A model generated the notes under the pieces. The model did not search any database. It was not told the origin of the DNA and worked only from the letters and a program-made list of their open reading frames with translations. A DNA stretch of 64,000 bases, taken from positions 1-64,000 of the forward strand of contig JASJBF010000027.1 in assembly GCA_030066685.1 (NCBI GenBank). Direction: 5' to 3'. The position numbers were made by a program, and so were the translations under genes. Origin of the DNA: Kiloniellales bacterium. GTDB lineage: Bacteria > Pseudomonadota > Alphaproteobacteria > Kiloniellales > JAKSBE01. Shown here one piece after another: positions 1-12,565 of this stretch; positions within the stretch are counted from its first letter, which is position 1, and every line of letters starts with the position of its first letter.

Positions 1-477
1 CCGAGGCCGCTGTTGTCGCCGCCGGAGTCCTCCTTGAGGAGCTGCTCGAAGTCCTCGAGGCGCAGGGACTCCTTGTCGAGCAGCTTGTCGTCCGACAGCA
101 GGTCGCCGCCGCCTTGGCCGCCCGCCGCGACCCGCGGCTGCGGCGCCGCGGCCGGGGCGGCGGGCTGCGCGGCCTGCGGGGCGGCCTCCGCCGGTGCGGT
201 CTCCTCGGCGGCTTTCTCGACCGGAGCTGGCGCGCCCTCGGCGGGCTTGCCCGGCGCCGCGTTGAGCCCCGGCCGTTCCCCGGCCCTGGGCGGTGGCGGC
301 GCGCCCTTGGCGGGCTCGGGCGCGGCCGCGGCCTCCGGCTTGGCGGGCGCGCCGCCAGAGGGCGCGATGTCCCCGAGGCCGCTGTTGTCGCCGCCGGAGT
401 CCTCCTTGAGGAGCTGCTCGAAGTCCTCGAGGCGCAGGGACTCCTTGTCGAGCAGCTTTTCGTCCGACAGCAGGTCG
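1..477 (-). repeat. Direct repeat inside the multihaem cytochrome gene (1-105 and 373-477)
   Basis: Bases 1-105 and 373-477 are nearly identical, with about one difference in the first 100 bases, and are exactly 372 bases (124 codons) apart in the same frame. Each encodes an acidic segment containing LRLEDFEQLLKEDSGG. The intervening linker is Ala/Pro rich. The identity at synonymous positions suggests recent duplication or gene conversion. The second copy reaches the window edge, so more copies may follow. Confidence 0.85.
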
Positions 478-2126
478 TCGCCGCTCTGGGCCAGCTGCAG
501 CCCGCCGGGAACGCGGCGGCCCTGGGTCGGATGGCCGCCGAGCGGGCCCGGTCCCGCGGCCGCGGCCAGCCGGGGCCCGGCGACCGGCAGGGAGAAGCCC
601 CGGAAGGAATAGGTGCTCCACCTGCGCGGCTTCGGCAGCTCGAGCGCGGCGCGTTTCTGGCGCCGCTCCTCGATCTCCCGCTTCAGCGCCGGGAACCAGT
701 CGCGCTGGGCGCTGCGCATCACGTCGAGGGGGATCTGCGCGATCAGCTGGGCCGCGATGTCGGCATCCAGGTTGCGGTTCAAGCTCAGCTCGACCCGGGC
801 CCGGACCGTCTCGGCGCCGGTGACCACGATGTCGTGCAGCAGCGCCTTGATGGCCCAGGCGACCCGCTGCACGGCGCGCAGCTCGCCCTCCTTGGCCTCG
901 GTCAGGTCGTTGAGCTGCAGCCGCTGGACCAGTGCCAGGTCGATCTCCAGCCCGGGCTGGCCGTTCAGCATCATGATCATGAAGGGCGACAGGCTCTGGG
1001 CGATGGCGTACTCCGGCCATTCGCCGATGTCGATCTTCCGCTCCTGCAAGGTCTCGAGATCGAGCTCGGGCAGGGCGAAGACCGGCAGGCCCTTGGTCCC
1101 GGCCAGGCCCTCGCCCTGGATGTCCTTGCGGTGGCAGGTCGCGCAGGTCTCGTCGAAGGGCTTGACCTCCATGTAGCGCCCGCTGTCGTCGGGCACGTGG
1201 CAGGAGGCGCAGGTCCGCGGCGGGTTCTTGACCTTGGATTCGGCGAAGTTGCGGTTGAAGTGTCTCTCGTGGTTGAAGGCCAGGCGGGTCCGCCGCAGGT
1301 AGGGATAGCGGTCGAAGGGCGGATGGCCCTCGGAGAAGCTGGCGAACTTGACCGCGTGGCAGGTCTGGCAGCGGTCGTCGGGCACCGCGGTGGCGTCGAA
1401 CTCGGCGCCGCGATGCTCCTTGTGGCAGGTCGCGCAGGCCAGGGCGTCCTCGGCCTGGGGCGGCAGGTCGAAGACCGAATCGCGCAGCGCGACCATCCAG
1501 GACGGCCGGGATTGCGGCGTGTTCGCGGTGATGGTCTTGGTATGCTGCTTCAGGACCGCGGGCGCCTGGTTGTGCGGATGGGTCGCATGGCGGCCGCGGT
1601 CGTGGCAGGCGACGCACTTCTTGCTGTCGCCGTGCGGGTCGTCCGGCCGCACCGAGGCCCGCAGCCAGCCCGCCGGCCCGCCCTCGAAGGCGACGTGGCA
1701 GACGCCGCAGTTGCCGACCTCGCCGTGGCCCTGGATCACCGGGCCCGGGTCGAAGGCCGGCGCGCGCAGCTCGGTGCCCAGCACCAGGGCGGCCAGGGCC
1801 AGGGTCAGGGCGGTCGCCCAGAAGGTCACCTTTCCGCGCTTGCGGCGCAGGCTGGCCTGGGGGACGCAGGGCGGGCGCTGCTGGCAGCAGCCGCCGTCGC
1901 GGTCCGGTCCCTGTTCGCAGGGCCCGCCCTGCTCCTCCGACCTGGTGCAGAGCCAGCGCTCGCCGTCGTGCCGCGGCTCGCACTCGCTCCGTGACTGGCA
2001 GCGGCCCTTGGCGGTCGGGCCGAGGCGGCAGGGCCGGCCCTCGGCGGCGTAGCCGCAGACCCACTGGTCCGAGACCCGCTGGTAGGGGCTGCGGTCGAAA
2101 TCGAAGCTCTGGAGTCGCCGCATCAT
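1..2126 (-). CDS. Membrane-anchored multihaem c-type cytochrome, 3' end outside window
   Basis: The frame is open from an ATG at 2126 to the window edge (708 codons). Residues 1-89 form a cysteine-rich cytoplasmic head made of two similar units (Trp22-Cys24-Cys33-Cys43-Cys49 and Trp58-Cys60-Cys70-Cys80/81-Cys87). A single hydrophobic anchor follows near residues 98-116. Six haem motifs come next: CGVCH, CVACH, CATCH, CQTCH, CASCH and CATCH, between about residues 142 and 330. After residue 500 the protein becomes Ala/Pro/Glu rich and carries a 34-residue segment twice, 124 codons apart. The start overlaps the upstream membrane gene by 4 bases (ATGA), so it is the fifth gene of the operon. I infer a periplasmic electron-transfer role. 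The redox partner and the true C-terminus are unknown. Confidence 0.85.
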   Translation of the reverse strand, partial: MMRRLQSFDFDRSPYQRVSDQWVCGYAAEGRPCRLGPTAKGRCQSRSECEPRHDGERWLCTRSEEQGGPCEQGPDRDGGCCQQRPPCVPQASLRRKRGKVTFWATALTLALAALVLGTELRAPAFDPGPVIQGHGEVGNCGVCHVAFEGGPAGWLRASVRPDDPHGDSKKCVACHDRGRHATHPHNQAPAVLKQHTKTITANTPQSRPSWMVALRDSVFDLPPQAEDALACATCHKEHRGAEFDATAVPDDRCQTCHAVKFASFSEGHPPFDRYPYLRRTRLAFNHERHFNRNFAESKVKNPPRTCASCHVPDDSGRYMEVKPFDETCATCHRKDIQGEGLAGTKGLPVFALPELDLETLQERKIDIGEWPEYAIAQSLSPFMIMMLNGQPGLEIDLALVQRLQLNDLTEAKEGELRAVQRVAWAIKALLHDIVVTGAETVRARVELSLNRNLDADIAAQLIAQIPLDVMRSAQRDWFPALKREIEERRQKRAALELPKPRRWSTYSFRGFSLPVAGPRLAAAAGPGPLGGHPTQGRRVPGGLQLAQSGDDLLSDEKLLDKESLRLEDFEQLLKEDSGGDNSGLGDIAPSGGAPAKPEAAAAPEPAKGAPPPPRAGERPGLNAAPGKPAEGAPAPVEKAAEETAPAEAAPQAAQPAAPAAAPQPRVAAGGQGGGDLLSDDKLLDKESLRLEDFEQLLKEDSGGDNSGL

Positions 2127-2947
2127 GGCGCCGCCGAGCCAAAGGCGTAGGCCAGGCCCACGTGAACCACGCTGAGGACCAGGACCGAGTAGCTCAGCGG
2201 CAGGTGGAAGAACAGCCAGAGCTTTAGGGTCAGCTGCAGGGCGTACTGGTGGTCCAGGTTGTCCTTGGCCGCCGTGATCTCACCGAGCCGGGTCAGCAGG
2301 TCGCGGCCCTTGGTGTTCTCGTAGCGCTGCAGCTCGCGAATCTGGTTCTCCAGGCGCCGGGCGTGCTTACGCGAGCCGGCCAGGTGCGCCAGCAGGTTGC
2401 GCGGTTTGCGCAGGTAGGGCGCCAGCACGGTCCAGTAGAAGTTGGCGACCGCGGTGTTGCCGGTCTCGTCCAGCGAGTTGTAGGCCAGGCCCTCGGCCTC
2501 GTTGGCGAGCTGGGCGCGGAACTGCGGGATCCGTTCGAAGAGGATCCGCTCGCCGCCGGCGCGCAGGCGCAGCGGCAGGCGGCGCGAGATCACCAGGCCG
2601 AAGACGCCGGTGGCGAAGAGCCCGACCGTGGTTCCCCAGAGCAGGATCTCGAAGCGGCCGTTGGGCAGCCTGAAGTCCGAGTGCAGAAAGAACAAGAGGG
2701 CGCAGATCAGGCCCAGGTAGACGTGGATCTGCAGCCAGGTCGAGGCCGCCATCAGGGGCAGGAAGGGCAGCTTCTTGCGGGCGTTGAACAGAATCAGAAA
2801 GACCATGCCGCCGAACAGCAGCCAGCCGTTCAGGAAGGCCGCGTCGCGCAGCGACATCTCGTAGAGGCCGTTGAACAGGACCAGCAGGCTCGCGGCCAGG
2901 AAGGCCAGGACGATGTTGACGAAGCGGCGTTGCGCGAAGCTGTTCAT
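2123..2947 (-). CDS. Predicted di-haem b-type integral membrane protein
   Basis: The 274-residue protein begins MNSFAQRR and has about five hydrophobic segments: residues 10-28, 38-54, 65-85, 95-115 and 235-270. Two segments each hold a pair of histidines 14 residues apart: the one after WLQIH, ending LLFFLH, and the one from FFHLP to SVVH. That arrangement is what bis-histidine haem b helices use, so I infer a quinol- or cytochrome-linked membrane electron carrier. Residues 130-225 form a charged soluble loop. It overlaps the ferredoxin gene upstream by 4 bases (ATGA) and the multihaem gene downstream by 4 bases, so all three are translationally coupled. No family name is certain from sequence alone. 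A cytochrome b561-like or ferric-reductase-like fold is possible. Confidence 0.75.
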   Translation of the reverse strand: MNSFAQRRFVNIVLAFLAASLLVLFNGLYEMSLRDAAFLNGWLLFGGMVFLILFNARKKLPFLPLMAASTWLQIHVYLGLICALLFFLHSDFRLPNGRFEILLWGTTVGLFATGVFGLVISRRLPLRLRAGGERILFERIPQFRAQLANEAEGLAYNSLDETGNTAVANFYWTVLAPYLRKPRNLLAHLAGSRKHARRLENQIRELQRYENTKGRDLLTRLGEITAAKDNLDHQYALQLTLKLWLFFHLPLSYSVLVLSVVHVGLAYAFGSAAP

Positions 2948-4743
2948 TGGCTGGCCCAGCGCCACAGGCTGTCGCGGTCCCTGAGGTCGAGGCGGACCAG
3001 GGCGTCGTGCGGGCAGGCCCGCTGGCAGGCCGGGCCGCCGAGCTGGTCGATGCAGAGATCGCACTTGGTCGCCTTGACGATCGGGTTGCCGCCGGTCTGG
3101 TCGACGATCGGCGAGCCGTCGTCGTCGCGGATCTCGACCATGCGGATGTTGTTGTAGGGGCAGGAGTTGGCGCAGGTCGCGCAGCCGATGCAGGTGGTGT
3201 CGTCGATCAGCACGTTGCCGCTGCCCGGGTCGCGGTGGATCGCGCCGGTCGGGCAGCCGATCAGGCAGACCGCGTCGACGCAGTGCAGGCAGGCGTTGGC
3301 GATCATGATGTTCTCGTGCTCGGGGCCGTGGCGCAGGAAGCGCGGGTTGTTGTCGTGGGCGGCGGCGCAGGCGCGCACGCAGTCGTCGCAGGCGGTGCAG
3401 CGGTCGGTGTTGATCGCCATGACCGCGGTCCCGTTCATGGTCCGGGTGTTGACCAGGAAGTCGATCAGGGTCGGGTCGACCGTCGCCTCGCGGCGGTCGG
3501 CGAAAGCCGAGAGGTGCCGGGTCGGGTCGTCGCGGGTCGCCGCGGCCAGGGCCTCCTCCGGCAGGCCGGGCAGCACGAAGCGCTCGACCAGGACCGTCGG
3601 CACCCGCAGCAGGTCGACGTAGCCGACCGCGTGCAGGCCGAAGCGGTGGTTGAGCGGCGCGTCCCGGCGCCAGTGGTCGATGATCTCGGGCAGGCCGAAG
3701 GTCTCGTTGCGGGTCAGGAAGCCCGCCGTGCGCAGGCCGCCGGCCTCCTGCTCGGTGATCCGGCCGAAGCCGGAGCGGATCAGGATCAGGCCGTCCAGGT
3801 AGTCGCCGTACTCGGCGATCACCGGCTCCGCCTTGACCACCTCCTGCGGGCTCTCCGAGGCCAGACGCTTGAATCCGTGCGCCCACTCGAACTCGCCGTG
3901 GGTCTCGAAGAGGGTGTTGCGGGCGATGTGGTCCAGGACCTCGTCGTCGAGGTGGCGGAACAGCGGCGATTCCTGCAGGTGCATCCTCAGGTCGCGGCTC
4001 TGGTAGAGCGAGTCGATCCGGGCCCGGAAGCCCTTGTTGCAGCGCCGGATGTCGCGCAGGCCCTGCCAGCGCAGCTCCAGGACCACCGCCCGGCCCTCGG
4101 CGAAGTAGGTCCGGTTGTAGGGCTGCCGGGTCAGGGCCTCGGTCTCGCCGAACATGTCGTCCTCGGTCAGCAGGTCGGTCTGCTGGCTTGCCAGGATGGC
4201 GCCGACGTCCTCCAGCCGCTCGCGCGGGCCTTCCTCCTCGGCCATCGCCCAGGGTCCCGCGAGCACCGGGTAGTCCTCGATGTTGCGGCGCTCGGGCACT
4301 GGCGAGTTGCGCCAGAGCTGGCCGATCGCCGAGAAGACGGAGCGCTTGGTCCTGGCGCCCTTGCGCGGCGCTCGGCCCCCGGCCTCGACCCGCAGGCTGC
4401 GGACCCGGCCGGCCATGACCTGGAAGAAGGAGCCGCCGAAGTCGCCGGCCTGCACGATCACCTCGCCGTGCTCGTAGTGCCGGATCCGCGCGTCGTTCAG
4501 CAGGATGCCCTGCAGCGGCAGGTTCCGCGGGAACTCCTTGGGGTCCATCTTCTGGAAGACCGGCGTATCCATCACCAGGTCGACGTCGCGCTCGGTCATC
4601 TCGGGGTCGAAGGGGCGGTCCCAGCGCTGCGGCCGGGGAATGCCGACCGCCCGCTGGCTGCGGCCGCGGTCGCTCTGGATCCGCGGGCTGCGCTCCGGCT
4701 CCGCGCGAAAGTCGATCGGCAGGCTGTCCCGGCCCCGGGCCAT
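2944..4743 (-). CDS. Cyclic-nucleotide-binding domains fused to a four-cluster [4Fe-4S] ferredoxin
   Basis: The 599-residue protein begins MARGRDSLP with a GGGAGAG ribosome site 8 bases after the previous stop. Residues 60-230 resemble a cyclic-nucleotide-binding domain, with the phosphate-cassette-like FGETEAL and a following NRT, interrupted by a basic insertion. Residues 235-390 look like a second, more degenerate domain. From about residue 440 there is a ferredoxin module of the DmsB/HybA type with four cysteine groups: CTACDDCVRAC, CLHCVDAVCLIGCP, CIGCATCANSCP, and CDLC with CQRACP. Four [4Fe-4S] clusters are therefore expected. There is no signal peptide, so it is probably cytoplasmic and sits against the coupled membrane cytochrome b. 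The fusion suggests nucleotide- or ligand-gated electron transfer. That is inference, since the ligand is unknown. Confidence 0.85.
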   Translation of the reverse strand: MARGRDSLPIDFRAEPERSPRIQSDRGRSQRAVGIPRPQRWDRPFDPEMTERDVDLVMDTPVFQKMDPKEFPRNLPLQGILLNDARIRHYEHGEVIVQAGDFGGSFFQVMAGRVRSLRVEAGGRAPRKGARTKRSVFSAIGQLWRNSPVPERRNIEDYPVLAGPWAMAEEEGPRERLEDVGAILASQQTDLLTEDDMFGETEALTRQPYNRTYFAEGRAVVLELRWQGLRDIRRCNKGFRARIDSLYQSRDLRMHLQESPLFRHLDDEVLDHIARNTLFETHGEFEWAHGFKRLASESPQEVVKAEPVIAEYGDYLDGLILIRSGFGRITEQEAGGLRTAGFLTRNETFGLPEIIDHWRRDAPLNHRFGLHAVGYVDLLRVPTVLVERFVLPGLPEEALAAATRDDPTRHLSAFADRREATVDPTLIDFLVNTRTMNGTAVMAINTDRCTACDDCVRACAAAHDNNPRFLRHGPEHENIMIANACLHCVDAVCLIGCPTGAIHRDPGSGNVLIDDTTCIGCATCANSCPYNNIRMVEIRDDDGSPIVDQTGGNPIVKATKCDLCIDQLGGPACQRACPHDALVRLDLRDRDSLWRWASQ

Positions 4744-4751
4744 GCTCTCCC

Positions 4752-5792
4752 TCAACTGCCGGGCGTCCTGGTCTTGCCCTTGTGCTCGGCGGACTTGGGC
4801 AGGAAGCGGTCGATGGCGGCCAGCTTCGAGCCGTCGTGGGTCTCGGCGAAGGCCTGAGCCGCCTTGGCCACCAAGTCGGCCACGGCGACCAGGGACTTGA
4901 CCTCGGCCAGGTTCAGCTTGGCGGCGCTGGCGGCGCGGGCCAGCTTGACCAGCTCCGGGTCCTTGGTGGCCCGGGCCAGGCGGCGGGCGCGCAGCCGGGC
5001 GATCTGCACGCGCTTGGCCATGGTCACCGCGAAGCGGTCCTTCTCGGTCGCCTTGCTCAACGCGCGCAGGGCGCTCTCCAGCTCGACCGCGACCCCGACC
5101 GCGTAGAACAGCCGCAGGCGCTCCTGGCTCAGCGGGCGGTTCTCCTTGCCGGAGTTGTGCCAGGTATTGTGGCGGACCTCGCCCTGGGACCAGCGGACCA
5201 GCTCGAAGGGGCTGCCGGCGGGATGGCCGCCCTTGTTGACCAGCTTCTCCTCCGGCACGACGTGGCAGCTGTAGCAGTTCTTGGTCAGGGTGTAGATCAT
5301 CTTGGGCCGGATCATTCCGGCCGCCTCGGCGTCGATCCAGCGCTGCTTGGCCTCCTCCGGCGTCTCGGTGTTCTTCTTCTTGCCGCTGTACTCGCTGTGC
5401 CGCTTCAGCCAGTCCTTGGCCGGGCTGTGGCAGGACTCGCAGGAGATGCCGGCGATCGGCCTGGTCTTGCCCTTCTGCTCCTTGCTCGAGAAGTGGCAGC
5501 TCACGCAGAGACCTTCGGCGCGGATCCGACGCAGGCCCAGGGCCTTGGCGATCTCCCGCCCCTTCTTGTTGCGCGGCAGCGCCTTGAAAGTCTTGTAGTG
5601 GTGGGTCTTCTTCCAGGTCTCCGTCTCTTGCTTGTGGCACTCCGCGCATTCGGTCGCGCCGACCACCTTGGCTGGATCCGGCGCGCGCGCCAGGGCGCCG
5701 CTCGAAGACGCCAGCAGGAGGCCGAGGGCCAGACTCGCGCCGGTGACGGCCAAGCGGATCCCGTGGTGCTGTCTTGCCTGCGTCATGGTCAT
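4752..5792 (-). CDS. Periplasmic tetrahaem cytochrome c (c554-like)
   Basis: The 346-residue protein begins MTMTQARQ; an internal ATG two codons later is an alternative start. A signal peptide ends near residue 36 (SGALARA). Four haem motifs follow: CAECH, CVSCH, CESCH and CYSCH, within residues 50-185. Spacing and residues such as GISCESCHSPAKDW are those of the cytochrome c554 family. Extra histidines (THHYKTF, RHSEY, RHNTWHN) can serve as distal ligands. Residues 205-346 form a haem-free, Lys/Ala-rich helical tail. The gene lies 9 bases after the reductase gene and 8 before the ferredoxin fusion, so it is operonic. I infer a periplasmic electron shuttle. The substrate is unknown. Confidence 0.88.
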   Translation of the reverse strand: MTMTQARQHHGIRLAVTGASLALGLLLASSSGALARAPDPAKVVGATECAECHKQETETWKKTHHYKTFKALPRNKKGREIAKALGLRRIRAEGLCVSCHFSSKEQKGKTRPIAGISCESCHSPAKDWLKRHSEYSGKKKNTETPEEAKQRWIDAEAAGMIRPKMIYTLTKNCYSCHVVPEEKLVNKGGHPAGSPFELVRWSQGEVRHNTWHNSGKENRPLSQERLRLFYAVGVAVELESALRALSKATEKDRFAVTMAKRVQIARLRARRLARATKDPELVKLARAASAAKLNLAEVKSLVAVADLVAKAAQAFAETHDGSKLAAIDRFLPKSAEHKGKTRTPGS

Positions 5793-5801
5793 CGCCGGGC
5801 C

Positions 5802-7067
5802 TCAGGCGTCCAGGACGAGGTCGCTTTCGGGGACGGTGATGCAGGCCAGGCATTGTCCCCGCGGCGGGGTCTGGCCCGGCTTGGCCAAGTAGCGGACCCG
5901 GCCCTCCTTGATCCCGATGGCGCAGCTCCCGCACTGGCCGGCGCGGCAGCCGCTGTTCAGGCTGACGCCGTTGCTCTCGGCGAGGTCGAGCAGGCTGCGC
6001 GCGGCCGGGCTCCAGTCCAGGGTCTTGCCCGAGCGCTGAAAGGCGATCTTGACCGTCTCCTGCTTGCCGCGGGCCTGGGCCGGCGGCTGGGCGGCCGGTT
6101 CCAGGGAGGCCGGGCCGAAGGCCTCCATCTTGATGTCGGCCTCCGGCACGCCGCTGTCCTTCAGCCCCTCGGTGATCGAGCGGATCATGCCGCCGGGGCC
6201 GCAGAGGTAGAACTCGCAGCCCTTGAAGGGCAGCAGGAATCGCATCAGCGGAACCGTGACGTGGCCCTTGTGGTCGTAGTCGCGGCCCTTCTTGCAGGTC
6301 GGGGACGGCCGGCTGTAGCAGACCACCAGGTGGAAGTTCTTGTGCCTGCGCTGCAGCTCCTTCAGGTGGTCGTACATGGCGTGGTGGCTGTGGTCGCGCA
6401 CGCCGTAGAACAGATAGACCTCGCGCTTGAGGCCGTAGGTGCAGATCGTGTTCAGCATCGAGAGCACCGGCGTGATGCCGATGCCGCCGGCGATCAGCAC
6501 GACCGGACGGGCCCGCCTGACGTCGAGGAAGAACTGGCCGGCGGGCGCCCGGACGTTGATGGTCGCGCCCTCGGGCAGCTCGTGCAGGCGGCTCGAGACC
6601 ACCCCGGCCGGCGAGCTTGGGCCCTTCTCGCCTTCGCCGATCCGCTTGACCGTGATCCGGTAGAAGTCGCGCGATCCGGGCGCGTCCGACAGGCTGTAGC
6701 AGCGGACCTGGGCCTGCGTCTGTCCCGGCACCGGGACCTCGACGGTCAGGTATTGCCCGGGCACGAAGGGCGGCAGCGGTTTGCCGTCGTGCGGCTTCAG
6801 GTAGAAGGAGTAGATGCCGGCCGCCTCGCGGACCTTGCGTTCGATGGAGAACTTCCGGACCCCGGTCCAGTTCTCGACCCGCTTGGCCGGTTTCGGCCGC
6901 GCCCGCCCGACGGCGCGCCGGGCGCGATGGACGAAGCCTTCCAGGGCCAGGGCTTCGCGCTGCCGGACACGGGCGTTCTGGCGCGCGACCCGGAACAGCA
7001 GCGCGGCCGCCTGGATCATGGCTCCGCCCAGGACCACGGCGCTGACGACTTGTAGAATCTCCTCCAT
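5802..7067 (-). CDS. Membrane-anchored FAD/NAD(P) oxidoreductase with C-terminal [2Fe-2S] domain
   Basis: The 421-residue protein begins MEEILQVV. Residues 1-27 form one membrane helix. Residues 70-180 are a ferredoxin-reductase-type FAD barrel with RCYSLSDAPG. Residues 185-310 form the nucleotide-binding half (GGIGITP and CGPGGMI). Residues 340-421 are a plant-type [2Fe-2S] domain with CRAGQCGSC and a later Cys. The order resembles NqrF in reverse and the electron-supplying components of oxygenases. It is the first gene of the five-gene redox operon. It probably draws electrons from NAD(P)H, or delivers them, on the cytoplasmic face. A conserved 31-bp element lies about 330 bp upstream. Confidence 0.88.
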   Translation of the reverse strand: MEEILQVVSAVVLGGAMIQAAALLFRVARQNARVRQREALALEGFVHRARRAVGRARPKPAKRVENWTGVRKFSIERKVREAAGIYSFYLKPHDGKPLPPFVPGQYLTVEVPVPGQTQAQVRCYSLSDAPGSRDFYRITVKRIGEGEKGPSSPAGVVSSRLHELPEGATINVRAPAGQFFLDVRRARPVVLIAGGIGITPVLSMLNTICTYGLKREVYLFYGVRDHSHHAMYDHLKELQRRHKNFHLVVCYSRPSPTCKKGRDYDHKGHVTVPLMRFLLPFKGCEFYLCGPGGMIRSITEGLKDSGVPEADIKMEAFGPASLEPAAQPPAQARGKQETVKIAFQRSGKTLDWSPAARSLLDLAESNGVSLNSGCRAGQCGSCAIGIKEGRVRYLAKPGQTPPRGQCLACITVPESDLVLDA

Positions 7068-7394: not shown

Positions 7395-7425
7395 TTTGGT
7401 GCGTTATTCCGGTGACAGAATTCGG
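7395..7425 (-). promoter_or_regulatory. Shared upstream element, copy 1 (before the reductase/cytochrome operon)
   Basis: The 444-bp gap 7068-7511 holds no credible gene. Bases 7395-7425 match 11070-11100 at 27 of 31 positions, including an uninterrupted 18-base core TCCGGTGACAGAATTCGG. Each copy lies upstream of one of the two minus-strand redox operons. Copy 1 has an imperfect inverted repeat (TTCCG and CGGAA, minus strand). It could be an activator site or a promoter for an alternative sigma factor. No standard -35/-10 pair was obvious. Confidence 0.55.
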
Positions 7426-7511: not shown

Positions 7512-9011
7512 TCAGAACTGATAGAGGATCTCGGTGCGGCCGCCGTAGGCGGTCTTGTCGCCCTGCTGCCGCACGCCGAAGCCCTCGATCTGCAGCAGCA
7601 TCTGCTGGGTCAGCTTCTGCTGGAACTGGAAGCCGATGCCCTGCTGGTCGAAGCCGATCTCGTCGCCGTCCAGGCCCAGGTCCTGCCGGATCGCCAGCTC
7701 GACCGCCAGGTTGGTCCAGTTGTCGTTCCAGAAGGCCTGGTAGCCGAGCGCGATCCCGCCGACGTCGTTGGCGCGGTTGTTCAGCTCCGATCCGAAGTTG
7801 CCGATGTTTGGCGAGGCGAAGAGGATTCCCAGGGGCGCCAGCGGGCCGCCGCCGTCGACCAGCTCGCGGCCGGCCTGCAGGAACTCGCCGAAGGCGACGA
7901 AGGGATTGGCGTAGAGGGTGTCCTCGGTGCCCCAGGGAGTCCAGGACAGCTCGGCGGAGAGCAGGATGCCGTCGCGGGTCAGGGCGGTCTCGTTCTCGGA
8001 GCCGAGCGCGAGCGATCCGTTGGCCCGGAAGGTGGTGTTGAAGTGGCCAATGCGCTGGGCCGCCGAGAAGCCGAGGAACACCCCGTCGTTGCTGTTCTTC
8101 TCGTCCAGGGTATAGACGGCGTCGAAGTTCAGCGTGGTGTCCGGCAGGTCCCACTCGGTGAGGAGGCCGAAGAGCTGGACGTTGTCTTCCTGGGTCTCCG
8201 CGACGCCGGTGGCCGAGCGGGTCACCTCGTTCCAGCCCCAGACGCCGGCGACCCGAAGGTTGGAGACCCCGGGCATTCGGATGTTGTTGCGCACCAGCCC
8301 GACCGAGTCGATGGTGTCGCTCAGCAGGATGCCGTCCTGCACGATCAGCGGCTGGCGCCCGACGGTGAAGCCGAAGTCGAGCAGGGACGTGCCGTTCGGG
8401 TCGAGATTGGGGAAGAGGCTGCCGAAGTCGCCTTCCGCGAAGAGCGTCCGGATGTTGAATTTGTACTCGTCCTGGCGGCCGCTGTCGTCGTCCGGCTCCA
8501 GGCGGTAGCCGGAGAAGTCGTCCGGCTCGTTCTTGTCGAAGGGCCGGACGCCGAACACGACCTTCTCGGTGCCGGTCAGCTGCAGGTTGGCGAAGAAGTC
8601 GCCGCGGTTGACGAATTCGGTGGTGCGCTCGGCCCGGCCGGTGTCGATGGTCTGGATCGAGGTGCGGTAGGTCCCGAAGACCCAGAGCCGCGGCTGCCAG
8701 ACCGCGCCGGTCGGCAGCTCGAAGCCGTTGTCGAGCTCGCCCTCGCCCAGGAAGTCGTCGCCGATCTCCAGGATCAGCGGCGGGCGATCCGGGATGTCGC
8801 CCTCGGTCAGGAAGGGCTTGGGCTCGTCCGACAGGCGGCTCTTGCTCTCCTTTTCCCCGGCGTCGTCGACCGGGCTTTCGGCGAAGCCCGGCTCGGCCGC
8901 AAGCAGCGCGGCCAGGGCGATGGCCAGGACCGGGGCCGCGCCGCCGCGGCGCGCGGCCCGCAGGGCGGCCGCTCCGGCCGCCGGGCGGGGTCGGGGTGCC
9001 GTCGCGTCCAT
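7512..9011 (-). CDS. Outer-membrane beta-barrel protein paired with the pentahaem cytochrome
   Basis: The 499-residue protein has a long n-region and signal peptide ending near residue 44 (EPGFAES). From about residue 90 it consists of alternating amphipathic strands with aromatic girdles (RLWVFGTYRTSIQT, GLLTEWDLPDTTLNFDAVY). It ends in the outer-membrane sorting signature, with phenylalanine as the last residue (EILYQF). An acidic periplasmic stretch precedes the barrel. It follows the cytochrome gene by 13 bases. I infer a porin, either a channel for a substrate or a sleeve for electron transfer as in porin-cytochrome conduits. At about 450 mature residues it is smaller than MtrB-type barrels, so this is unproven. 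Confidence 0.8.
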   Translation of the reverse strand: MDATAPRPRPAAGAAALRAARRGGAAPVLAIALAALLAAEPGFAESPVDDAGEKESKSRLSDEPKPFLTEGDIPDRPPLILEIGDDFLGEGELDNGFELPTGAVWQPRLWVFGTYRTSIQTIDTGRAERTTEFVNRGDFFANLQLTGTEKVVFGVRPFDKNEPDDFSGYRLEPDDDSGRQDEYKFNIRTLFAEGDFGSLFPNLDPNGTSLLDFGFTVGRQPLIVQDGILLSDTIDSVGLVRNNIRMPGVSNLRVAGVWGWNEVTRSATGVAETQEDNVQLFGLLTEWDLPDTTLNFDAVYTLDEKNSNDGVFLGFSAAQRIGHFNTTFRANGSLALGSENETALTRDGILLSAELSWTPWGTEDTLYANPFVAFGEFLQAGRELVDGGGPLAPLGILFASPNIGNFGSELNNRANDVGGIALGYQAFWNDNWTNLAVELAIRQDLGLDGDEIGFDQQGIGFQFQQKLTQQMLLQIEGFGVRQQGDKTAYGGRTEILYQF

Positions 9012-9024
9012 GCTCCGCCCCCGC

Positions 9025-10911
9025 TCAGCCGTCGACCTCGAAGACGATCTCCTTCTCCCAGAGCGTCTCCGCGCCCGCGACCACGGCGTCGGCCAGCTCC
9101 CGGGCGCTCATGTTGTAGTCGAAGCCGACCCGCTCCACGGCAGCGATCAGGTTGACCGGGATCATCTGGGCGTTGAGCTTGACCGTCGCCCGGTAGGGAC
9201 CCTTGCCGGTCAGGGCGTCGCCGTCGACGCTGTAGTCCGCCCAGCGGTTGCCCAGGGGCTCGATGCCCTTGCGGTGGTTGCGCTCGGTGGGCGGCTCGCC
9301 GGTCAGGATCAGCGACAGGGTCGAGGGCCGCACGATGGGCAGGGCGGTCACGGTGAAGGGGATCGGGATCACCGCCTCGCGCTCGCCGCCGCGGCCCTGG
9401 GTGACGACGAAGCGGGACTGCAGGTTGAAGAGGTAGTCGTCCAGCGGCAGCTCGCCGTTGTGGACGTAGAGGGAGTGCAGGTCGCGGACGTCGCCGTTGG
9501 GATCCCGGTCGCCCGATTGGAACAGCACCTTGCCCTCGGCGTCGAAGACCGTGACCTCGAGCCAGACCAGGCGCTCGCCGGTGAAGCCGGTCGGCACGTT
9601 GTGGCCGTCGGTGATGTTCTTGACCTCGACGCTGAAGTCCAGGCCGTCGCTGTCCGCGTCCTCGATGACGATGTCGCCCAGCATGTAGCCGTTGCGCAGC
9701 AGTTCCAGGCGCTTCTTCCTGGCGGTGGCGAGGCGGGCGAACTGCACGTCGAGGATCTCGCGGGCGTCGTAGCGGTCGTCCGGGGCTTCCCAGCGCTCCG
9801 GGAAGACCTGGTCGTCGCTCACCGTGTCCTCGAAGGCGTCGGTGCCCCAGCCGGCCTCGACGTCGAACTTCAGCCAGTCCTCGAGAGTCGCCAGCTTCTG
9901 GGCGTCGCTGTTATGCGGGAAGATCCCGGGATGGATCACCGAGTAGTCCGGGCCGGCGAAGGTGTGGTCGGTCAGCTTCCGCGGCTTGGTCTCGACCCCG
10001 CCGACTTCGGCGGCCGGCCCGTGGGCGTAGCCGCTGGCGACGCCCTGGACCTTGCCCATGTGGCAGTCCTGGCAGGTCTCGCCGCGCGCCGCCGCCGGCG
10101 ACATGCGGTACTCGCTGAAGGCCTCCTCCAGGCGGAAGCCGTTGAACAGGGTCACGTCGTGGCAGCTGCCGCAGAAGGTCGAGGAGGAGATGCCCGCGAA
10201 CTTCTTGACCTGGGTGTGGATCTGGCGGCCCTGCTGCTCGCGCTCGGTGACCACGCGGTAGTCGTCGTCCTTCAGCACGCGCTCCAGCTCCGAGTTGCCG
10301 GTCGGGCCGTAGACCGGCTCCAGGAGGTCGCCCTCCTGCAGGCCGATCCGGCCGCTGGCCTTGTTGTAGGCCTTGTTGACCCGGTGACAGACCACGCAGG
10401 TGATTCCCTCGCGCGAGGTCGGGTGGCGCTCCAGGTTGGAGATGAAGGGCGACTCGCCGAGGTTGGCGCCGACCTGGTTGTGGCAGCGCAGGCAGAAGTC
10501 GCCCATCGAGCTGCTGGTGCTGAAGTTGAGGAAGTTGTTGATCGCCATGTAGACGGGGCTGAGCTGCGCGTAGGAGTGCTGCGAGACCGACCACTCCTTG
10601 TAGTGCTTCGGATGGCAGGTGCCGCAGGTCGCCGCTGAGGGATAGCGGGTCTCCTGGAACAGCAGCTCGTGCTGGCGCTCGGCCTCGTCGAAGAAGGCCT
10701 CCTCCTCCTCGGCCCCGGGTCCGGCCTCGGCGGGTGCGGCCTCCACCGCCTCGGCCAGCGTTTCCGCTTCGACCTCGGGCGCTTCGGCCCTGGGCGCTTC
10801 GACCGGCTCGCCGCGTTCGGAGCCGACGGCGGGCCAGGCGACAGTGGCGCAGATCGTGAATGCGATCGTGAGCGCGAGGAACTTGGGCTTGGGGGGGAGC
10901 TGTGACGACAT
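9025..10911 (-). CDS. Periplasmic pentahaem cytochrome c with C-terminal beta domain
   Basis: The 628-residue protein has a signal peptide ending near residue 30 and then an acidic, alanine-rich linker to residue 75. Five haem motifs (CGTCH, CLRCH, CVVCH, CGSCH, CQDCH) lie between about residues 93 and 275. The family is cytochrome c554-like multihaem proteins. Residues 400-628 form a haem-free beta-rich domain beginning near NITDGHNVPTGFTGERLVWL, a feature of many secreted multihaem cytochromes. It is first in a two-gene operon with the outer-membrane barrel. A 31-bp element shared with the neighbouring redox operon lies about 160 bp upstream. I infer an electron carrier between the inner-membrane system and the cell surface. 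The acceptor is unknown. Confidence 0.85.
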   Translation of the reverse strand: MSSQLPPKPKFLALTIAFTICATVAWPAVGSERGEPVEAPRAEAPEVEAETLAEAVEAAPAEAGPGAEEEEAFFDEAERQHELLFQETRYPSAATCGTCHPKHYKEWSVSQHSYAQLSPVYMAINNFLNFSTSSSMGDFCLRCHNQVGANLGESPFISNLERHPTSREGITCVVCHRVNKAYNKASGRIGLQEGDLLEPVYGPTGNSELERVLKDDDYRVVTEREQQGRQIHTQVKKFAGISSSTFCGSCHDVTLFNGFRLEEAFSEYRMSPAAARGETCQDCHMGKVQGVASGYAHGPAAEVGGVETKPRKLTDHTFAGPDYSVIHPGIFPHNSDAQKLATLEDWLKFDVEAGWGTDAFEDTVSDDQVFPERWEAPDDRYDAREILDVQFARLATARKKRLELLRNGYMLGDIVIEDADSDGLDFSVEVKNITDGHNVPTGFTGERLVWLEVTVFDAEGKVLFQSGDRDPNGDVRDLHSLYVHNGELPLDDYLFNLQSRFVVTQGRGGEREAVIPIPFTVTALPIVRPSTLSLILTGEPPTERNHRKGIEPLGNRWADYSVDGDALTGKGPYRATVKLNAQMIPVNLIAAVERVGFDYNMSARELADAVVAGAETLWEKEIVFEVDG

Positions 10912-11069: not shown

Positions 11070-11100
11070 ATTGATGCGTCAATCCGGTGACAGAATTCGG
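11070..11100 (-). promoter_or_regulatory. Shared upstream element, copy 2 (before the pentahaem cytochrome operon)
   Basis: This 31-base element matches 7395-7425 at 27 positions and in the same orientation relative to the downstream operon. It lies in the 346-bp gap 10912-11257 between divergent genes, 159 bases from the cytochrome start. Nothing else recognisable was seen in the gap. Confidence 0.55.
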
Positions 11101-11257: not shown

Positions 11258-12565
11258 ATGACAGGAAGTGTCGGATCGAACCGCGCGCTGCCCCGCCAGC
11301 GCCTTCAACACCCTGCGGCCGGCGCGGCGCTCGGCCGTGGCGATGGACATGCCGGGTCGCTTGTCCTCGGGCCTCGGCTGCGCCTTGCGCTCGCCTGCCT
11401 GCTGGCGGCCCTGGTCCTCGCCCTGGCCGCGCCGGGCCGCGGCGTCGCCGGCGAGGTCGCCTGGGAGCGCTACTCCGATCTCGGTCGCAAGGCGCTTCAG
11501 GATCAGGACTACGGCGAAGCCCGCGCGATGTTCGAGGCGGCGCTGCGCGAGGCCGAGCAGATCTCGCCCTGGGACATGAGGGTCGGCCACAGCCTCAACG
11601 ACCTGGCCGCGACCTACTACGCCGAGGGCGGTCATGCCGAGGTCGCCGAGCTCCTGACCCGGGCCCTGCAGGTGATCGAGGTCGGGCTCGGGCCGGACCA
11701 TCCGGACGTCGCCCAGGTTCTCAAGAACCTCGCGGCGGTCGAATACCTGCAGAACGATTACGCCTCGGCCGAGACCAAGATGCTCCGCGCCGTGGAGATC
11801 TGGGAGGCCAGCCTGGGCGGCGACAACCACAGCGTCGCCGCCGCGCTGAACAACCTCGCCGGCATCTACGAGGCCCAGGGACGCCATCCCGAGGCCGCGA
11901 TCGCGCTGGAGCGCTCGCTGCTGATCTGGGAGAAGATCGTCGGCCCCGACCACGAGGCCGTGGTCGAAAGCCGGCGCCAGCTGAACGAGCTGCAGCGGGT
12001 CCACGGGCTCCTGCCCTCCGCAGTCGCGGCGGACCGCTCCCGCCAGGTCGCGCCGGCCGCCCGGGCCGCCGGGCTCGAGGCGCCAACCCGGCCGCAGCCG
12101 GCCGCGGCCATTCCGGCGCCGGCCGCAGCGCCGGAACCGGCGCCGGCCGCAGCGGCCGCCCCGGCGCCGCAGATCGCAGCGCCGGATACGATCTTCCTGG
12201 AGCCGGCCGGCCAGGCCGCGCCGGCGGGGATCGACGCGGCGGCCAGCCCCGCGCGCAGCCCGCCCGTCGAGGCGGCGCCGGCCCGGGTGCAGGTCGCCCA
12301 GGCCGCGCCGGCGGTCCGCCTGATCAACCTTCACCTCGGGTCCTTCCGTTCCCAGGCCTCGGCCGAGGACAGCCGCAGCCGCGTCCTCGATAGCTACCGG
12401 GACATCCTGGCGGCGCAGGAGATTTGGGTCGAGCGGGCACAGGCCGGACCGCGCGGCGACTTCTTCCGGGTCATGGCCGGCCCTTACGAGAGCGCCTCCG
12501 TCGCCCAGGACGTCTGCACCCGCCTGCAAAGCCTGCGCCAGGACTGCTTCCTACGTCAGCGCTGA
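11258..12565 (+). CDS. TPR-repeat protein with C-terminal SPOR domain
   Basis: The 435-residue protein has a 40-residue n-region and then a hydrophobic export segment (LRLALACLLAALVLALAA), so the true start may be later. Residues 68-235 contain about four tetratricopeptide repeats of the 42-residue kind (SLNDLAATYYAEGGHAEVAE, ALNNLAGIYEAQGRHPEAAI). Residues 255-350 are an Ala/Pro linker. Residues 355-435 are a SPOR fold (LHLGSFRSQASAEDSRSRVL), which binds denuded peptidoglycan at the septum. It is convergent with another SPOR protein, so the two may act together in envelope or division functions. The TPR and SPOR assignments are firm; the specific role is not known. Confidence 0.75.
   Translation: MTGSVGSNRALPRQRLQHPAAGAALGRGDGHAGSLVLGPRLRLALACLLAALVLALAAPGRGVAGEVAWERYSDLGRKALQDQDYGEARAMFEAALREAEQISPWDMRVGHSLNDLAATYYAEGGHAEVAELLTRALQVIEVGLGPDHPDVAQVLKNLAAVEYLQNDYASAETKMLRAVEIWEASLGGDNHSVAAALNNLAGIYEAQGRHPEAAIALERSLLIWEKIVGPDHEAVVESRRQLNELQRVHGLLPSAVAADRSRQVAPAARAAGLEAPTRPQPAAAIPAPAAAPEPAPAAAAAPAPQIAAPDTIFLEPAGQAAPAGIDAAASPARSPPVEAAPARVQVAQAAPAVRLINLHLGSFRSQASAEDSRSRVLDSYRDILAAQEIWVERAQAGPRGDFFRVMAGPYESASVAQDVCTRLQSLRQDCFLRQR

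Follow-up and report, generated by a model that had tools for sequence, protein, structure and literature searches.

A 64,000-nucleotide stretch of DNA from a Kiloniellales bacterium of the Alphaproteobacteria (assembly GCA_030066685.1, contig JASJBF010000027.1, positions 1 to 64,000; hereafter the window) opens contig C27 of a 5.96-Mb genome and begins with seven minus-strand genes, whose products (P0001 to P0007) we identify as the putative porin-cytochrome cluster PCC4, subgroup II, of He et al. 2017 (PMC5566968). We read the set as a seven-protein electron path across the cell envelope, running from NAD(P)H to haems of the envelope and gated by the iron-sulfur protein P0003, and we give this reading an even chance of being right. 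The genes lie in two units, P0007-P0006 and then P0001-P0005 (Table 1). An initial annotation of the window had described the second unit as a tightly coupled five-gene redox operon, and on the minus strand the coupling is as stated, with gaps of 9 bases (P0001/P0002) and 8 bases (P0002/P0003) followed by 4-base ATGA overlaps at P0003/P0004 and P0004/P0005. The five genes are real, but the set is one of seven, P0006 and P0007 directly upstream of P0001 having been overlooked.

The same annotation knew of no published complex made up of these parts, a view that the match to PCC4 overturns, and an undescribed complex was rejected as a candidate. As described in the main text of He et al. (PMC5566968), PCC4 comprises a porin, cytochromes of 4, 5 and 10 haems and an inner-membrane protein with five transmembrane segments, an SGxxG motif and two WX3HX13H motifs; in subgroup II an iron-sulfur (PF13247) gene lies upstream of the inner-membrane protein gene and a redox gene upstream of the tetrahaem gene. 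The cluster was reported there from Alpha-, Gamma- and Zetaproteobacteria, Planctomycetes and drinking-water-filter bacteria, and was modelled as an iron-oxidation, quinone-reducing conduit in which electrons move inward via the inner-membrane protein. Every listed feature open to testing is found in the window: P0004 carries W71/H75/H89 and W244/H248/H262 together with TGxxG; P0002, P0007 and P0005 have 4, 5 and 6 haems, the last count being followed by the contig end and standing at 10 in full-length relatives; P0003, directly upstream of P0004, matches PF13247 (E 1.7e-9); the redox gene P0001 occupies its expected place; and the predicted barrel P0006 is linked to the cluster via a shared 30-bp site. 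The match is one of described features rather than of alignment with the sequences of He et al. Subgroup I (the Hyphomicrobium type) is seen in our locus L043, which lacks P0003, has P0007-P0006 on the opposite strand and shows the order Fer2-FAD-NAD in its P0001 homologue, whereas the window has P0003 and the order FAD-NAD-Fer2. The homologues thus belong to a complex that has been named and modelled on paper; experimental characterisation of PCC4 was not found in the open-licence literature. New relative to the PCC4 paper are the signalling links (cyclic-nucleotide and FHA domains, cyclase and kinase neighbours), the proposed NAD(P)H entry and the predicted barrel size of about 18 strands, all absent from its main text, as well as linker motifs shared between two of the cytochromes.

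Relatives were collected by scanning 84,980 species genomes with a P0003 alignment, and the best 80 loci, all of long coverage, were used with the window to give 81 (labelled L0xx or L1xx). Many are metagenome bins, and start sites are approximate, as genes were called by an in-house script. As the loci were picked by a P0003 search, the neighbours and not the presence of P0003 itself count as evidence. The order had been put forward as something to check across genomes, and it is conserved: genes 3-4-5 are contiguous in 77 of 81 loci, far above chance, 2-3-4-5 in 62 and 1-2-3-4-5 in 48; the full seven-gene order is seen in 25. Many of the incomplete loci run into contig ends. In some Verrucomicrobiota (L090, L095) the set is split divergently into 7-6-1 and 2-3-4-5. 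The loci span at least seven phyla (Pseudomonadota, Planctomycetota, Verrucomicrobiota, Nitrospinota, Nitrospirota, Poribacteria and Omnitrophota) and the SAR324 cluster; relative to the distribution given in the main text of He et al., Verrucomicrobiota, Nitrospinota, SAR324, Poribacteria, Omnitrophota and Nitrospirota are additions. A Mariprofundus locus (L124) is also among the relatives. The nearest relatives among the loci listed are Kiloniellales metagenome bins with 90-92% P0003 identity, with which the window groups in the P0003 tree. A distant clade II (L048-L058; Alphaproteobacteria and others) has a cNMP/Fe-S protein (cyclic-nucleotide and iron-sulfur) fused to a pyridine-nucleotide oxidoreductase, a di-haem b protein and a decahaem protein with an FHA-like N-terminus; at some clade II loci a 1375-residue LVIVD-repeat multihaem protein lies nearby. 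Clustering of neighbouring genes gave cyclases, kinases and lineage-specific genes only, with no conserved metabolic neighbour that would name a substrate.

That the operon could form a complete trans-membrane electron path, as first proposed, is supported, since cofactor ligands are conserved in every component and synteny extends across phyla. P0001 has one N-terminal transmembrane segment, an FAD/NAD domain and a C-terminal [2Fe-2S] domain; NAD_binding_1 and Fer2 are present in all 64 relatives, and the RxYS flavin motif and the Fer2 cysteines C374/C379/C382/C409 are invariant in their alignment. P0003 had been taken for a cyclic-nucleotide-binding ferredoxin, and both parts hold (PF00027, Fer4 and PF13247 in 81/81), the ferredoxin part being in fact a set of 16 conserved cysteines in four groups, corresponding to four [4Fe-4S] clusters and kept in 77 of 81 sequences. 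It resembles in this the four-cluster ferredoxins DmsB, NrfC and HydN, from which it differs in its fusion to cyclic-nucleotide-binding (CNB) domains and in having a di-haem b protein rather than a molybdoenzyme as partner. The di-haem b assignment of P0004 is supported by four invariant histidines in two H-x13-H pairs (H75/H89 and H248/H262), each with a tryptophan at -4; two W-x3-H-x13-H motifs occur in 72 of 73 relatives and [ST]GxxG in 73 of 73. No Pfam family reaches its cut-off in P0004, the closest being Ferric_reduct (PF01794) at 16.9 bits against a threshold of 28. With the ferric reductase/NOX/MsrQ transmembrane domain of that family it shares the two H-x13-H pairs for two b haems and an NAD(P)H-FAD reductase partner, but here the reductase is a separate protein with an iron-sulfur relay. 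A sequence-profile search found no relative of solved structure for either P0004 or P0006.

Among the c-type cytochromes, P0002 has four haems in 69 of 70 relatives. P0005, called simply a multihaem cytochrome at first, is multihaem indeed, but its ten-haem nature was missed, and part of the gene lies beyond the contig end: the window copy shows six haems because the contig terminates at window base 1, inside a repeat, whereas 62 of 72 long relatives have ten. A search of the other contigs of the assembly did not find the remainder of the gene. Before its transmembrane segment, on the presumed cytoplasmic side (2126-1850), P0005 bears two four-cysteine repeats, C-x8-CxxGP..GxC-x5-C, a pattern seen in 53 of 78 relatives. 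P0007 consists of a signal peptide, a long acidic linker, a domain with five haems (36 of 39 relatives) and a C-terminal beta domain. The fold of its haem domain is that of the Thermochromatium tepidum pentahaem cytochrome c552, 5ze8 (Foldseek E 1.9e-11; profile E 6.6e-15), of the ExtKL family, from which P0007 differs in its long acidic N-terminal linker and its outer-membrane barrel partner. It is among the best-conserved proteins of the set, with identities mostly of 52-75%, standing at 65-69% to several distant lineages and falling to 36% in divergent members, and of 31 genomes in most of which the cluster has no full-length copy, 24 contain a strong homologue (E<1e-70). Two verrucomicrobial variants (L137, L138) come from genomes with no close P0007 and have a 1330-residue ten-haem gene upstream. 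In the Kiloniellales bin L059 both P0007 and P0006 seem internally deleted (1944-3072; 265 and 104 residues left), through decay or assembly error.

The disordered linkers of these two cytochromes share short motifs of the SDDLL, GDDIL and SDILA type, found in P0005 of the window and in the P0007 N-termini of L035, L105, L109, L064 and L113; within the window the motif is present in P0005 and absent from P0007. In the P0005 linkers that follow haem 6 the pattern [SG][DE][DIE][LI][LAVMI] is found 65 times, where 500 shufflings gave a mean of 6.8 and at most 15; in the N-termini of P0007 it is found 35 times, against 1.5 after shuffling and at most 8. The background is 38 in 218,808 residues of 632 other genes. 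Its presence in two cytochromes of one system suggests a common docking partner, and the repeats that carry it are a possible reason for the break of several assemblies, that of the window among them, within P0005.

P0006 matches no Pfam family in a scan of the window proteins, and its AlphaFold model is a barrel of about 18 strands whose best Protein Data Bank matches are ChiP, the OccK/OprD family, MOMP and AlgE. Structure models were made for two proteins, one each, as single chains without partners. P0006 adjoins P0007 wherever both occur in the loci. The two belong to the system, as shown by this adjacency, by co-occurrence in genomes and by the 30-bp site, a copy of which stands upstream of each unit. 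The copies agree at 27 of 30 bases and are the only two in the genome, with no third at up to 3 mismatches; being shared, the site makes it likely that P0007-P0006 and P0001-P0005 form a single regulon, and a wider one was rejected on the strength of this genome scan. Both sites are kept in L059, while the contig of L060 stops short of the upstream region; no good copy was found in the scanned alphaproteobacterial relatives outside Kiloniellales. Adjoining P0007 is a gene for a TPR and SPOR (peptidoglycan-binding) protein (11258-12565, plus strand), and the C-terminal tail of P0005 in L059 resembles its SPOR domain.

Table 1. Positions, in window coordinates, of the seven genes and of features within and upstream of them
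Feature	Position	Strand	Basis
P0007, periplasmic pentahaem c-type cytochrome	9025..10911	-	5 CxxCH; fold match to 5ze8
P0006, outer-membrane beta-barrel, ~18 strands predicted	7512..9011	-	AlphaFold pLDDT 81
P0001, membrane-anchored NAD(P)H:FAD/[2Fe-2S] reductase, 421 aa	5802..7067	-	FAD_binding_6/NAD_binding_1/Fer2 (Pfam)
P0002, tetrahaem c554-like periplasmic cytochrome, 346 aa	4752..5792	-	4 CxxCH; Cytochrome_C554 PF13435
P0003, two CNB-like domains and four [4Fe-4S] sites, 599 aa	2944..4743	-	cNMP_binding and Fer4 (Pfam)
P0003, phosphate-binding cassette of CNB1, FGETEALTRQPYNRTY, conserved Arg replaced by Tyr	4105..4152	-	cassette comparison, n=92
P0003, four-cubane Fe-S region, C449 to C577	3013..3399	-	invariant or near-invariant Cys quartets
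P0004, inner-membrane di-haem b protein, five transmembrane segments, 274 aa	2123..2947	-	two W-x3-H-x13-H and [ST]GxxG
P0005, Cys-rich cytoplasmic N-terminus, one transmembrane segment, multihaem c, cut by contig end	1..2126	-	c7/MtrC-like (Pfam)
P0005, linker repeat copy 1, DDLL motif	381..482	-	sequence
P0005, linker repeat copy 2 (GDLLSDDKLLDKESLRLEDFEQLLKED), at which the contig terminates	9..107	-	sequence
30-bp candidate regulatory site CCGAATTCTGTCACCGGAATAACGCACCAA, upstream of the P0001-P0005 unit	7396..7425	-	genome scan
30-bp candidate regulatory site CCGAATTCTGTCACCGGATTGACGCATCAA, upstream of the P0007-P0006 unit	11071..11100	-	genome scan

Links to signalling are found both within P0003 and around the loci. 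The cassette of its first CNB domain (CNB1) follows the consensus FGE(I/L)xALxRxPRxAT(V/I) in clade I, and the residues that contact the cyclic nucleotide are kept at 91/92 (Glu) and 87/92 (Arg), so that at the level of the family P0003 is a predicted cyclic-nucleotide binder. In Planctomycetota a class III cyclase gene lies divergently beside P0001 in 8 of the 11 loci in which P0001 opens its unit and the flank is available (L081, L086, L101, L104, L114, L119, L123, L127), and at two others of the 11, L078 and L087, the divergent neighbour is a Ser/Thr kinase. At L087 both P0001 and P0003 bear FHA domains, and L078, which pairs with it in the tree and whose P0001 and P0003 are just as long, is taken to do likewise. 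FHA domains occur in 5 of 81 P0003 and 6 of 64 P0001 sequences, and the fusions in Verrucomicrobiota (L098), Nitrospirota (L094) and Hwanghaeella (L084) lie on separate branches of the tree; in L098 (4768-6423) the FHA domain sits inside the NAD-binding domain of the reductase and not at a terminus. In 7 of the 11 clade II loci the gene immediately downstream resembles those for cyclic-nucleotide phosphodiesterases.

On the path that we propose, NAD(P)H would reduce P0001, first at FAD and then at [2Fe-2S]. The four cubanes of P0003 would relay the electrons to the pair of b haems in P0004, and from there they would traverse the inner membrane, reach the ten c haems of P0005 and move on by way of the four haems of periplasmic P0002 to the five of P0007, partnered with the barrel P0006. 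P0003 would be the gate, a second messenger bound to its CNB domain opening or closing the relay, and in other lineages protein phosphorylation might act instead through the FHA domains on P0001 and P0003. Electron entry has two separate flavoprotein solutions, P0001 in clade I and the fused oxidoreductase in clade II, and that both clades pair the iron-sulfur/b/c path with an NAD(P)H flavoprotein argues for a link to NAD(P)H over the published one to quinone. This pairing leaves direction unsettled; outward flow is favoured on energetic grounds. More tentatively still, as something we hold to be rather less than evenly likely, the loci may represent a widespread class of path whose conductance is switched by signalling, through cyclic nucleotides on the iron-sulfur relay or elsewhere through phosphorylation via FHA, with NAD(P)H-driven export toggled allosterically and SDDLL linkers docking the periplasmic cytochromes.

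Several points weigh against the gated outward path. In the window itself P0003 has Tyr in place of the cassette Arg, which is lost only here, in L059 and L060 (all Tyr), in L061 (His) and in L097 (Gln); its loss in the window and its two closest relatives makes gating by cyclic nucleotides least likely in the very organism examined, and the gate is probably fixed or re-purposed in this Kiloniellales lineage. The second CNB domain of clade I lacks a canonical cassette, the divergent cyclases are restricted to Planctomycetota, where some of the loci are closely related, and the phosphodiesterase-like matches score below their equivalog cut-offs. Searches of the open-licence literature found no paper on a multihaem path gated by cyclic nucleotides and no biochemical characterisation of any component. 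The direction of electron flow is an inference rather than a demonstration, and quinone could be the redox partner of P0004, as in the proposal of He et al. (PMC5566968). In the published model an extracellular donor, for example Fe(II) or Mn(II), gives up electrons at the outer membrane, and these are passed inward through P0004 to the quinone pool, which fits the occurrence of PCC4 in Zetaproteobacteria and drinking-water-filter bacteria described there (PMC5566968) and the Mariprofundus locus found here. Such electron uptake is nonetheless improbable in our judgement, as the path terminates in an NAD(P)H flavoprotein and iron-sulfur centres of low-potential type, and electrons sent inward to NAD+ by way of stacked b haems would have to move against the membrane potential. 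Moreover, many of the hosts (Nisaea, Thalassobaculum, Tistlia, Opitutaceae) are not known as iron oxidisers.

The two remaining explanations turn on P0006 and P0007. The cytochrome might sit inside the barrel as MtrA does in MtrB and deliver electrons directly to insoluble acceptors, as the PCC4 name and model and the paired genes would have it, and in MtrCAB, MtoAB and PioAB too a periplasmic multihaem cytochrome gene adjoins an outer-membrane barrel gene. The MtrB barrel, however, has about 26 strands, and no Pfam family links P0006 to it; at about 18 strands P0006 is predicted to be too narrow to sheathe a cytochrome, in which case the pentahaem domain could not sit inside, and we regard a sheathed conduit of the MtrAB kind, disfavoured by the barrel model, as very improbable. 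Alternatively, P0006 would be a substrate-specific porin admitting a compound that P0007 would reduce in the periplasm, with nothing extracellular involved, in keeping with the likeness of the barrel to OccK/OprD, ChiP and AlgE, its constant place beside P0007 and a conservation of P0007 across distant lineages such as would be expected of a catalyst. Yet at least five conserved histidines outside CxxCH (H81, H112, H232, H316, H437) suggest that all five haems of P0007 may be bis-His, that is, electron carriers, as judged from sequence, and the function of the closest structural match, T. tepidum c552, is itself unclear (PMC11976967). A reductase of a soluble substrate seems to us rather unlikely.

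The outward, NAD(P)H-driven path remains our preferred reading of a gene set that is found in at least seven phyla, has so far been a bioinformatic proposal only, and looks like a full electron route that starts at NAD(P)H and leads to the outer envelope. If this reading is right, the view of PCC4 as an iron-oxidation, quinone-reducing conduit would be revised, and should cyclic nucleotides or phosphorylation prove to gate the relay, bacterial signalling would be linked directly to electron export, an idea that could be put to the test in marine bacteria that grow in culture, Nisaea and Thalassobaculum among them.

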